The position numbers and the translations under genes were made by a program. A stretch of 64,000 bases of DNA. Source: an uncultured Clostridia bacterium. GTDB lineage: Bacteria > Bacillota > Clostridia > Oscillospirales > Ruminococcaceae. The notes below the pieces were generated by a model. The model had not been told where the DNA came from and made no database searches. It saw nothing but the letters and a program-made list of their open reading frames with translations. The stretch covers positions 62,001-126,000 of the forward strand of contig CALWZA010000031.1 in the NCBI GenBank assembly GCA_944385905.1, written 5' to 3'. Shown here one piece after another: positions 6,901-61,465 of this stretch (the stretch's first letter is position 1; each line of letters opens with the position of its first letter).

Positions 6901-7013
6901 TTTTAAAGCTGACTGCGGGCGGTTTGATTTACCGCCCCATGTTGTTTATGAGACTCAAAGCAGCTTTGATATCTGAAAGTATAACCTCAAGCTGCAAAGG
7001 TATGGTGAATTTT

Positions 7014-8387
7014 ATGGACAAAATGTGGGCAGGGCGCTTTCAGAAGGCGCTTGACAAGGAAGCTGACGATTTCAACTCGTCTATACATTTCGACTGCCGG
7101 ATGTACAGGCAGGATATAAAAGGCTCTATGGCTCATGCGGCGATGCTGGGCGCAAAGGGAATAATTTCAAAGGAGGATTCCGAGAAGATTATCGACGGGC
7201 TTTCGGGTATTCTTGAGGACCTTGACAGCGGCAGGCTTTCGTTTGATTACGGCTGCGAGGATATTCATATGTTTGTTGAGCAGGTTTTGACCGAAAGGCT
7301 CGGAGATGTCGGCAAAAAGCTTCACACGGCAAGAAGCCGCAACGACCAGGTCGCTCTTGATATAAGGATGTACCTCAGGGACGAGACAAATGAGCTTATA
7401 GCGCTTATTAAGGATTTGCTTGGTGCGATAACAGAGCAGGCCAAGGCGCACAAGTCAACCATTATGCCGGGATACACTCATCTTCAAAGAGCACAGCCCA
7501 TAACCTTCGGGCATCACATCATGGCTTACGCAATGATGCTTTCAAGGGATATCGGCAGGCTTGAGGACGCAATGAAGAGAATGAATTATTCTCCCCTTGG
7601 CTCATGCGCCCTTGCAGGTACAACATACGATACCGACAGGGAAATGACAGCGAAGGCTTTAGGCTTTGACGGAATTACTCTCAACAGCATAGACGGCGTT
7701 TCGGACAGGGATTTCTGCGCGGAGCTGATGAGCGCGTACGCAGTAATAATGATGCACCTTTCGAGATTTTCCGAGGAGATTATTCTCTGGTCGTCATGGG
7801 AGTTTAAATTCATCGAGCTTGACGACAGCTATACTACAGGCTCAAGCATTATGCCGCAGAAGAAAAATTCTGATATGGCTGAGCTTGTAAGAGGCAAAAC
7901 CGGCCGTGTATACGGCGACCTTTTCGCTATGCTGACTGTTCTCAAAGGCTTGCCGCTTGCGTATAACAAGGATATGCAGGAGGACAAGGAGGCTGTTTTC
8001 GACAGCATAGACACCGTTAAAAAGTGCGTTTCTATTTTCTCGCCGATGATAAGAACAATGAAGGTATTCCCCGAAAATATGTATAAGGCGGCTCAGGGCG
8101 GCTTTATTAACGCTACCGATATCGCCGATTACCTCGTTAAAAAAGGTATGCCTTTCAGAAGCGCATATAAGATAGTCGGACAGATAGTCGCGCTTTGCAT
8201 TGAGAAAAAAACCGTTTTGGATGAACTGCCGCTTGATGAATACCGCAAATTTTCCGAGTTGTTTGGCGAGGATCTTTACGATGAAATAAGCCTTGAGGCA
8301 TGTGTCGCGAAGCGTATTTCGGCAGGCGGAACGGGGCTTGCCTCAGTTGAAAAACAAATTGACTATATAAACGGACTGATAAAATAA
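7014..8387 (+). CDS. argH: Argininosuccinate lyase
   Basis: ArgH splits argininosuccinate to arginine and fumarate. The 457 residues carry the N-terminal WAGRF, the fumarase-superfamily signature GSSIMPQKKNSD with its catalytic serine loop, and TARSRNDQVA. I choose the ATG at 7014 (MDKMWAGRF). A GTG at 7005 (VNFMDKM) is possible because AAAGG lies at 6996-7000. A hairpin with arms GCAGCTTTGA (6960-6969) and TCAAGCTGC (6987-6995) abuts that ribosome binding site and could tune translation. An earlier hairpin at 6917-6937 (GGGCGGT/ACCGCCC) lacks a T run, so it is more likely a processing or stability element than a terminator. Confidence 0.96.
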   Translation: MDKMWAGRFQKALDKEADDFNSSIHFDCRMYRQDIKGSMAHAAMLGAKGIISKEDSEKIIDGLSGILEDLDSGRLSFDYGCEDIHMFVEQVLTERLGDVGKKLHTARSRNDQVALDIRMYLRDETNELIALIKDLLGAITEQAKAHKSTIMPGYTHLQRAQPITFGHHIMAYAMMLSRDIGRLEDAMKRMNYSPLGSCALAGTTYDTDREMTAKALGFDGITLNSIDGVSDRDFCAELMSAYAVIMMHLSRFSEEIILWSSWEFKFIELDDSYTTGSSIMPQKKNSDMAELVRGKTGRVYGDLFAMLTVLKGLPLAYNKDMQEDKEAVFDSIDTVKKCVSIFSPMIRTMKVFPENMYKAAQGGFINATDIADYLVKKGMPFRSAYKIVGQIVALCIEKKTVLDELPLDEYRKFSELFGEDLYDEISLEACVAKRISAGGTGLASVEKQIDYINGLIK

Positions 8388-59155: not shown

Positions 59156-59204
59156 TAAATAATAAGTTTTAACAATATACTCGTTATTGGCGGCGGAGAG
59201 ATTA

Positions 59205-60212
59205 ATGAAATATCAAACAACCGAAACGGACAAAAAGAAAGTAAAAAGCCTTGTCAGCGAGGCGGCTGTCAAGACAGCGGCGGCTTTGATAATATACAAT
59301 ATTTTTACTTATATTTTTTCACAGCTTTTTATTTTGCTGTTTTTTTTCGCCGCAAACGGATATTTCCCTTCGGACTATTCAGAGAGAGCGTCGGCTGCAA
59401 AACTTATAAACGGCTCGACCGCTTTGCTTATGCTTTTTCAGTCGGCGGTCACCTTGTGTTCGGCATTGACGCTGGCGGCGTCGGCAAGGGCGGTTTATAA
59501 AATTAAAATATCGGATATTTTTTCAAAAACCGAAAGACCCTTGGCAAAGGCGCTTACATATTATCCGATTGCGGGGGCTGTGAATTTTTCGTTTACATTG
59601 CTTGCTGTGCTTATATCCTCTTTTTTCATGAGCTTCGGAGTCGGACTGAAAACGGCGGATTTTTCGCTTGATGTGCTTGATGTTAAAACATCGGCGGCAA
59701 TGTTTGCGTACGTTTGTATTGTGGCGCCGCTTTGCGAGGAGTTTGTTTACAGAGGATTGGTTATTCGGCTTTTGGCGCCGTTCGGAGAGGGAGCGGCGGT
59801 TTTTGTGTCCGCATTGACGTTCGGGATGATGCACGCCAATATTCCTCAGTTTATATGCGCTTTCGGCGTGGGGCTTGTGCTTGGATATGTAACGGTTAAA
59901 TACCGCACTGTTGTTTTAAGTGTCATAATCCACAGCCTGAATAATTTTCTGCCGTTTCTTCAAAGCGTAATTAATTCGTGGGAGGACGCGCCAGGCGCAG
60001 TTATAATAATTTTTAACATTTTCCCGATTATAATAACCGTTTTGGGACTTTTAGCGGCGGCTTTAAGATACAAAAAGCACTTTTACCGGTTTGAGCGCAG
60101 AACGTCAGCTGTATCAAGTGCGGAGAAACTGGGGCTTATAGTTTTCAATCCTGTAATGCTTATGTATTTTGCGGTTTTGATATATGAAACCGCGGCTTCG
60201 GTCGTGATATAA
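59205..60212 (+). CDS. CPBP family intramembrane metalloprotease
   Basis: This 335-residue protein has seven to eight membrane helices. Metal-site motifs are EEFVYRGLVI, FGMMHANIPQF and HSLNNFLPF. It differs clearly in sequence from the CPBP protein at 16 kb, so the two are not a recent duplication. The ATG at 59205 follows GGAGAG; a TTG six codons upstream is possible. The substrate is unknown. A structured element separates it from pheA. Confidence 0.85.
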   Translation: MKYQTTETDKKKVKSLVSEAAVKTAAALIIYNIFTYIFSQLFILLFFFAANGYFPSDYSERASAAKLINGSTALLMLFQSAVTLCSALTLAASARAVYKIKISDIFSKTERPLAKALTYYPIAGAVNFSFTLLAVLISSFFMSFGVGLKTADFSLDVLDVKTSAAMFAYVCIVAPLCEEFVYRGLVIRLLAPFGEGAAVFVSALTFGMMHANIPQFICAFGVGLVLGYVTVKYRTVVLSVIIHSLNNFLPFLQSVINSWEDAPGAVIIIFNIFPIIITVLGLLAAALRYKKHFYRFERRTSAVSSAEKLGLIVFNPVMLMYFAVLIYETAASVVI

Positions 60213-60229
60213 ATTTTTATTGGAAATAA

Positions 60230-60322
60230 GTGTGAAAAATTCTTTTTCACACAGGCTATTTGAAACTTTGCGGCACTATACGATGGCTGCAATTTCGGCT
60301 TCGCCGAAACCGTTTCAAATAG
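60230..60322 (+). other. Compact three-way-junction element before pheA
   Basis: A hairpin GTGTGAAAAA/TTTTTCACAC (60230-60252) is followed by an 11-bp perfect outer stem, CTATTTGAAAC (60256-60266) with GTTTCAAATAG (60312-60322). It encloses two adjacent hairpins: TTGCGGC/GCTGCAA (60268-60292, one G-U pair) and TTTCGGC-TTC-GCCGAAA (60293-60309). Almost every base outside the first hairpin's loop is paired. It ends about 7 bases before the AAAGG of pheA. It could be an mRNA leader element or an intergenic mobile palindrome. No other copy was noticed in the window. Confidence 0.6.
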
Positions 60323-60346
60323 AATCTTAAAGGTATGGTGATAAGT

Positions 60347-61465
60347 ATGGGACTTGACGAGCTTAGAAAAAAAATTAACGGGATTGACGCTCAGTTAGCA
60401 AAGCTTTTTGACGAGAGAATGGAAATTTGCAGGGATGTCGCGAGATATAAGATTGAAAACGGACTTCCCGTTTTTCAAAAGGACAGGGAAAACGAAATAA
60501 TAAAAAAGGTGAGAGAATCCGCTCCCAAGGGAATGGAGGGCGCTCACGAGGTCTTGTTTTCGACTGTTATGGACATCAGCAAATCGCTTCAGTACGCGGA
60601 GGTTTTTGAAAAAGAAGAGGCAATGACCGCAAAGCAGTTTTCAAGAGACGCTTCTCCCACGGTAGCCTGTCCGGGAACTTTCGGCTCGTATTCGCACAAG
60701 GCTGTGAATATGATATTTAAAGACTGCAATATCAATTTTTTTGCTGATTTTGAGGATGTTTTCAAAGATGTTCTCAGCGGCAAAGCCGATTTCGGCATAC
60801 TGCCCGTTCAGAACTCAACGGCGGGTTCGGTGGCGTATACTTATGAGCTTATGAGAAAATACGATTTTCATATATGCGCTTCGGCAAGGGTTCAGGTTTC
60901 GCACTGCCTGTGCGTTAAAAGCGGAACATATATGCAGGACATTGAGGAGGTCTTTTCCCATGAGCAGGCTCTGGCGCAGTGCTCAAGATTTTTGGCTGAA
61001 AACGGGTTAAAGCACAGCGACTACGCAAATACTGCTCTTGCCGCCGAATTTGTCGCAAAAAGTCCTGAAAAATACGCGGCGATTTGCTCAAAAGACTGCG
61101 CGGAGAAGCTCGGTTTAAAGATTTTAAGCGACAACATAGCGAATGAAAAAGAAAACTATACTCGCTTTATACTCATTTCAAAAGATGTTTACACCTCGCC
61201 CGAAGCTGATACAGTTTCGGTTGCGCTTTCGCTTTCCCATACCCATGGCTCACTTTACAGGCTTTTGACCAAATTTTCGGTTGAGGGGCTTAACCTGACG
61301 AGAATTGAGAGCAGACCTATTGCGGGAACGGATTTTGAGGTTTTGTTTTATCTCGACTTCTGCGGCTCGCTGTCATCCAAAGCCGTGTCAAAGCTTGTGT
61401 CCGAGCTGAAAAGTGAGCTTGATTACTTTAAATTTCTCGGAAACTATTATGAAATAACGCCGTAA
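60347..61465 (+). CDS. pheA: Bifunctional chorismate mutase/prephenate dehydratase
   Basis: The P-protein makes phenylpyruvate from chorismate via prephenate. The 372 residues fall in order into an AroQ-type mutase (about 1-85: LDELRKKINGIDAQLAKLFD and RYKIENG), a dehydratase (about 105-285: CPGTFGSYSHKAVN, PVQNSTAGSVAYTYELM) and an ACT domain (about 290-370) with HGSLYRLLTKF and the phenylalanine-binding ESRPI. Feedback inhibition by phenylalanine is therefore expected. The ATG at 60347 is preferred because GGTGAT is 4-5 bases upstream; an ATG at 60335 abuts AAAGG. ispDF follows after 13 bases. Confidence 0.94.
   Translation: MGLDELRKKINGIDAQLAKLFDERMEICRDVARYKIENGLPVFQKDRENEIIKKVRESAPKGMEGAHEVLFSTVMDISKSLQYAEVFEKEEAMTAKQFSRDASPTVACPGTFGSYSHKAVNMIFKDCNINFFADFEDVFKDVLSGKADFGILPVQNSTAGSVAYTYELMRKYDFHICASARVQVSHCLCVKSGTYMQDIEEVFSHEQALAQCSRFLAENGLKHSDYANTALAAEFVAKSPEKYAAICSKDCAEKLGLKILSDNIANEKENYTRFILISKDVYTSPEADTVSVALSLSHTHGSLYRLLTKFSVEGLNLTRIESRPIAGTDFEVLFYLDFCGSLSSKAVSKLVSELKSELDYFKFLGNYYEITP

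Follow-up and report, generated by a model that had tools for sequence, protein, structure and literature searches.

The window, that is, the whole stretch of 64,000 nucleotides of Clostridia DNA that was analysed, carries a strongly folded element between two co-directional genes, the second of which is pheA. The locus comprises the following parts.

59187-60212, + strand: upstream co-directional gene for a CAAX-protease-like (Rce1-like) membrane protein, ending 17 nt before the element
60220-60229, + strand: left flank ttggaaataa, the position held by the native Shine-Dalgarno (SD) sequence in young copies elsewhere, here with a weak remnant, GGAA
60230-60252, + strand: left-end hairpin (HP1), 10 bp with a 3-nt loop, GTGTGAAAAA-TTC-TTTTTCACAC
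60256-60322, + strand: three-way junction, recognised by sequence reading, RNAfold and covariation
60256-60266 / 60312-60322, + strand: outer stem of the junction, 11 bp
60267 and 60310-60311, + strand: the three unpaired bases of the junction
60268-60274 / 60286-60292, + strand: second hairpin (HP2), 7 bp with an 11-nt loop
60293-60299 / 60303-60309, + strand: third hairpin (HP3), 7 bp with a TTC loop
60323-60346, + strand: SD-bearing tail AATCTTAAAGGTATGGTGATAAGT, with AAAGG at 60329-60333 and GGTGAT at 60337-60342, belonging to the repeat
60347-61465, + strand: pheA, chorismate mutase-prephenate dehydratase (CM_2, PDT), its ATG abutting the right end of the element

The fold described by the first-pass annotation was present base for base at 60230-60322, with every one of its parts recovered. 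Minimum-energy and centroid structures predicted by RNAfold were both identical to it, with -38.8 kcal/mol compared to a mean of -22.9 for shuffled sequences (z = -4.5; none of 200 shuffles was as stable), and a longer folded window still gave z = -3.5 against shuffles. The further claim that the element ends before the pheA ribosome binding site proved wrong, as the SD-bearing tail TTAAAGGTATGGTGATnAGT recurs before unrelated genes. Within the source genome the tail TTAAAGGTATGGTGAT recurs seven times exactly and once with a single mismatch, in each case as the tail of a copy, while control patterns yielded no match. Moreover, the unit repeated in tandem arrays spans AGTGTGAAAAA to GGTGATT; the SD-bearing tail is thus part of the repeat, and the full repeat extends from 60230 to approximately 60346, about 24 bases beyond the feature as first noted. 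The anti-SD at the 3′ end of 16S rRNA is AUCACCUCCUUUCU, and the tail consensus AGAAAGGAATGGTGAT resembles the complement of that end. Judged by its sequence, the tail at 60323-60346 is the predicted replacement ribosome-binding site of pheA.

Scans of the window copy and 23 other loci against Rfam gave no convincing match at E-values up to 1, and T-box, riboswitch and other known RNAs were rejected as identities; the earlier statement that the element is not a T-box therefore holds. The sole overlap, found on the opposite strand of one locus (L231), fell below the threshold (E = 0.65). A promoter was not found within the element; on its minus strand a T-rich stretch follows HP1 and scores as terminator-like. 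No convincing second copy was detected within the 64-kb window, and a minus-strand match at 60159-60252 was discarded since it represents HP1 read backwards. At 6996-7016 the tail-like sequence AAAGGTATGGTGAATTTTATG precedes an argininosuccinate-lyase-like ORF with no recognisable element upstream, which may be either a remnant of the element or merely the local SD style.

Copies in the source genome, its relatives and phages

Searching the source genome (40 contigs, 91% complete) by DNA similarity yielded 16 matches, corresponding to about a dozen copies when the loci were read. The copy before pheA is single, whereas three tandem copies precede a flavoprotein gene, which we read by eye from its sequence as dipicolinate synthase subunit B-like. 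Two tandem copies are located in front of feoB, two copies in front of cysK, and one in front of ridA; the gap between aspS (named by eye from its sequence) and pfkB contains one full copy and one fragment, and diverged copies lie before yajC and before groL. HP1 itself was found at ten places in this genome, besides mirror readings of the palindrome.

Scanning GTDB representative genomes with HP1 alone retrieved 26 stretches, among them loci in Massiliimalia timonensis (Clostridia; Oscillospiraceae in NCBI) and in several Clostridia MAGs. A covariance model (R1) built from 25 copies detected 12 matches in the source genome, 12 in M. timonensis, 35 in MAG CAMVYG and 16 in MAG JAFUQU; copy number between relatives ranged from 1 to 35. 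R1-bearing genomes made up 18 of 397 in the family, distributed over 14 of 126 genera, and an order sample added 13 bearing genomes across five other families, in which most of the copies that were read again have the order SD, element, start codon. A pattern consisting of hairpin 3 plus SD, applied to 295 genomes of the order, returned the source genome's own copies only and was too strict. The repeat, roughly 120 nt in size, varies between approximately 75 and 140 nt, most copies having about 115 nt. Most copies of MAG JAFUQU (L177-L188) contain an extra hairpin, CTTTCGCTACGCGAAAG or similar, between tail SD and start codon, and in two loci (L236, L237) the HP1 loop is larger by about 25-30 nt. 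At four loci (L063, L065, L068, L079) the MAG contig terminates inside the element, so that these repeats probably break assemblies and the copy numbers obtained from MAGs are probably underestimates.

DNA similarity to the window copy gave no match in plasmids and annotated phages, and viral contigs scanned with the window-type HP1 or with two further patterns gave none either. A variant HP1, GTTTGAAARATAAATYTTTCAAAC, was however found in seven viral contigs (L247-L253), all of which proved on inspection to carry copies. The genes behind these phage copies encode tail, connector or integrase proteins or are neighbours of head or sheath genes. In L252 the copy is located between the major head protein and the head-tail adaptor genes, and in L253 it precedes the integrase gene.

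Absence of covariation had been named beforehand as grounds for abandoning the structure; the stems were found to covary strongly. Changes of both partners were seen for 7 pairs in a MAFFT alignment of the 25 copies, amounting to 20 cells compared to 4.4 in shuffles. For 87 distinct copies, in a model-fitted alignment that leans towards the structure, 28 of 30 pairs were double-changed, with 347 cells against 79 in shuffled alignments, and slid controls on the same alignment reached 19-60 cells. Variants of HP1 recognised by eye include GTGTG/CACAC, GTCTG/CAGAC, GCGTG/CACGC and GTTTG/CAAAC. The slid controls and these variants independently support covariation. The asymmetry between G-U and A-C combinations, which bears on folding as RNA versus DNA, amounted to 69 versus 51 (p = 0.12).

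Placement and mobility

The element is situated behind the native SD and in front of the start codon, and with few exceptions it points the same way. A same-direction ORF starts at or near the end of the element in 84 of 91 copies, compared to 12 of 91 in the turned-round control. Four of the seven exceptions are internal to tandem arrays. Two others, from M. timonensis, are followed by ORFs that are short or broken, and for the last (L189) no long ORF was found. Since random positions in these loci have a nearby ORF start in 56% of cases, internal start codons being counted, the telling facts are the turned-round control and the exact offset between element end and start codon, which is mostly 0. 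On the left side, an SD-like 4-mer is present in the flank of 72 out of 90 copies, in most cases at 2-5 nt from the first base of the element; in control windows the frequency is 18%. Model R1 includes the tail and might thereby bias the placement; the HP1-only scan, which is blind to the tail, revealed the same placement in the phage contigs (7/7) and in 21 of the 22 copies for which the sequence extends far enough to the right. The genes behind about 100 copies are unrelated to each other. They include alaS, pnp, guaA, secA, tsf, clpB and groL, which argues that translation must survive the insertion.

In the source genome the left SD is kept in one of seven copies not situated behind a tandem neighbour, whereas the tail SD is kept in 10 of 12. 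The copies of this genome look older; the weak left SDs could also mean insertion away from an SD. In HP1 of nearly all copies (60232 in the window) the motif nTGAAA occurs, in which n is usually G, T or C; its spacing from the native SD is that of a start codon. This motif may serve the displaced native SD as a start codon, in which case the element may be translated in coupling with the gene.

For evidence of mobility, M. timonensis flanks were joined without the element and searched within the genus. At all four testable loci the sister species (G508) matched across the junction with the element absent and synteny conserved (scfA-scfB, rpmB-flavoredoxin-like, asnS-larE and prmA-like-gph-like), and in these empty sites SD and ATG are close together. 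At scfA-scfB, for instance, AAAGAAAGGATGTTA is followed by the element and then ATG in M. timonensis, whereas the sequence of the empty site is AGAGAGGATGTTTTGATG. Empty and filled sites share only 68-80% identity, which is too diverged for a base-exact junction or a target duplication to be read. Several copies within M. timonensis are 97-100% identical to each other. Two species of one genus (L191, L192) share the position of a copy in front of secA, although the tails differ, so that some insertions are old and inherited.

Mechanism and alternative explanations

Three identities had been offered at the outset, namely a leader RNA controlling pheA, a small RNA and a MITE-like repeat. The last was right in kind, given the scattered near-identical copies and the empty sites; for a small RNA we obtained no support. 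We consider it highly probable that the feature is a non-autonomous mobile folded element, which enters the gap behind an SD, ahead of the start codon, and provides a new SD in exchange. Such an element would insert at translation-initiation regions, and its tail SD would replace the native SD displaced by the insertion, so that insertion would be tolerated even before alaS, secA, groL or tsf. From the decayed left SD and the maintained tail SD in the source genome we infer that the element would take over initiation from the native SD. HP1 and the three-way junction may represent the recognition structures for a putative trans-acting enzyme acting on DNA or RNA. A Y1 transposase or a reverse transcriptase as mobiliser was rejected because of absence from key genomes: the Y1 transposase domain (PF01797) was absent in the source genome (G000), M. 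timonensis (G446) and MAG JAFUQU (G331), with one match in G330, and reverse transcriptase (PF00078) was present in only 2 of 17 bearing genomes and absent from G000, G446 and G331. Somewhat more tentatively, as a possibility that we would not favour outright, the element might embody a new target choice, recognising translation-initiation regions as DNA or mRNA, repairing the SD by itself and moving between chromosome and phage. An added regulatory effect, also on pheA expression, is possible; an effect on pheA, if any, would be a side effect.

A cis-regulatory leader RNA, riboswitch-like, protein-binding or acting as a thermometer, for pheA or for a regulon sharing the leader, would agree with the strong fold, the strong covariation and the location at the SD, and in some species TTCC/GGAA pairing could cover the tail SD (fold of L157). 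RNAfold however predicts no SD-masking pairing for the window copy, no Rfam family is matched, and copy number varies from 1 to 35 among relatives. Dozens of unrelated genes lacking a common function have the element in front of them, no other examined copy precedes pheA, and orthologous sites in the sister species are without it, all of which speaks against its having evolved as a pheA leader. We therefore regard a regulatory leader as unlikely. More unlikely still is an intron-like element whose excision from the mRNA would bring native SD and start codon together again. Its position between SD and ATG would suit this explanation, as excision would restore the site. Group II introns begin with GUGYG at the 5′ end, and many copies start with GTGTG. 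Yet these first bases vary with compensation (GTCTG, GCGTG, GTTTG), a reverse transcriptase is missing in G000, G446, G331 and most other genomes, and no Rfam intron was matched. An SD carried by the element itself would be needless upon excision, and in the source genome it is the native SDs that look decayed and the tail SDs that persist.

A small translated leader, in which the native SD initiates at nTG AAA in HP1 and a short ORF is coupled to the gene, draws on the near invariance of nTGAAA and its suitable spacing from the left SD; for the window copy the frame GTG(60232)...TAA stops at the tail SD. In many copies, however, this frame is broken or read through, it is open in 46% of cases compared to 51-54% for some antisense frames, and the base changes preserve the stems. 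As no small ORF within the element is conserved across copies, we give this explanation very little credence. Least probable of all, to the point of being scarcely credible, is an ordinary palindromic repeat without target specificity whose other insertions were lost. Selection would indeed remove insertions in coding sequence, but those after genes or upstream of the SD would be spared, and the HP1-only scan shows almost none of them; BOX, RUP and SPRITE of Streptococcus pneumoniae are, in contrast, enriched between convergent genes (PMC3049150).

We found no published description of such an element in the open literature that was searched, so that its novelty is provisional. No other mobile element that is restricted to the interval from SD to start codon is known to us. 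If the reading as a mobile element targeted to this interval is true, a parasite provides the very translation signal that its insertion displaces and so does no harm in front of essential genes, and it has colonised an order of Clostridia as well as structural operons of phages. For genome annotators, the element would then explain displaced start sites and account for a set of strongly folded 5′ leaders which might be taken for riboswitches.

Comparison with known introns and repeats

The c-di-GMP group I ribozyme is located upstream of a start codon. Like this ribozyme and group II introns, the element lies between SD and start codon, and many copies share the GUGYG 5′ end. It differs from these introns in being far too small, in showing no catalytic core in Rfam scans and in occurring mostly in genomes without the reverse transcriptase expected for a group II intron. 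Neither was a convincing match to a known structured RNA obtained from Rfam, nor did the roughly 100 copies reveal a link to pheA or aromatic amino-acid genes as expected for a cis-regulator of pheA. With REP/RAYT systems the element has in common that it is a palindromic extragenic repeat with a hairpin as the likely recognition unit; REPs are, however, 20-40 bp in length (PMC3733652). A resident Y1 transposase, which characterises REP/RAYT systems, is absent from G000, G446 and G331.

The TAACTGA direct repeats of marine Beggiatoaceae are likewise located directly upstream of the start codons of unrelated genes, mostly in one orientation, but they are short tandem heptamers, usually without an SD (PMC4679880), whereas the present element is a structured unit of 115 nt with an SD of its own. 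Like the BOX, RUP and SPRITE repeats, it is small, non-autonomous, dispersed, modular, strongly folded when transcribed and sometimes clustered. A location between SD and ATG is not described for those repeats, Rfam showed no relation to them, and BOX and RUP have terminal inverted repeats and target duplications (PMC3049150).

With the MITEs Correia/NEMIS, ERIC, RPE and YPAL the element shares a length below 200 bp, a folded structure, presumed mobilisation in trans and a potential to alter the expression of neighbouring genes (PMC2229807). Most MITEs end in inverted repeats, whose termini are often TA (PMC2229807). Here the two ends differ, being a hairpin on the left and an SD tail on the right; the left end GTGTGAAAAA and the right end ..GGTGATnnnn are non-complementary, and the inverted repeats are internal hairpins. 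Unlike MITEs, the element is bound to a single kind of functional site and to a single orientation. The element is nevertheless dispersed, shorter than 200 bp and devoid of an own transposase gene and a conserved ORF, and empty orthologous sites at four of four testable loci attest to its mobility. The nearest kind is a bacterial MITE or a BOX/RUP-like repeat (PMC2229807, PMC3049150).
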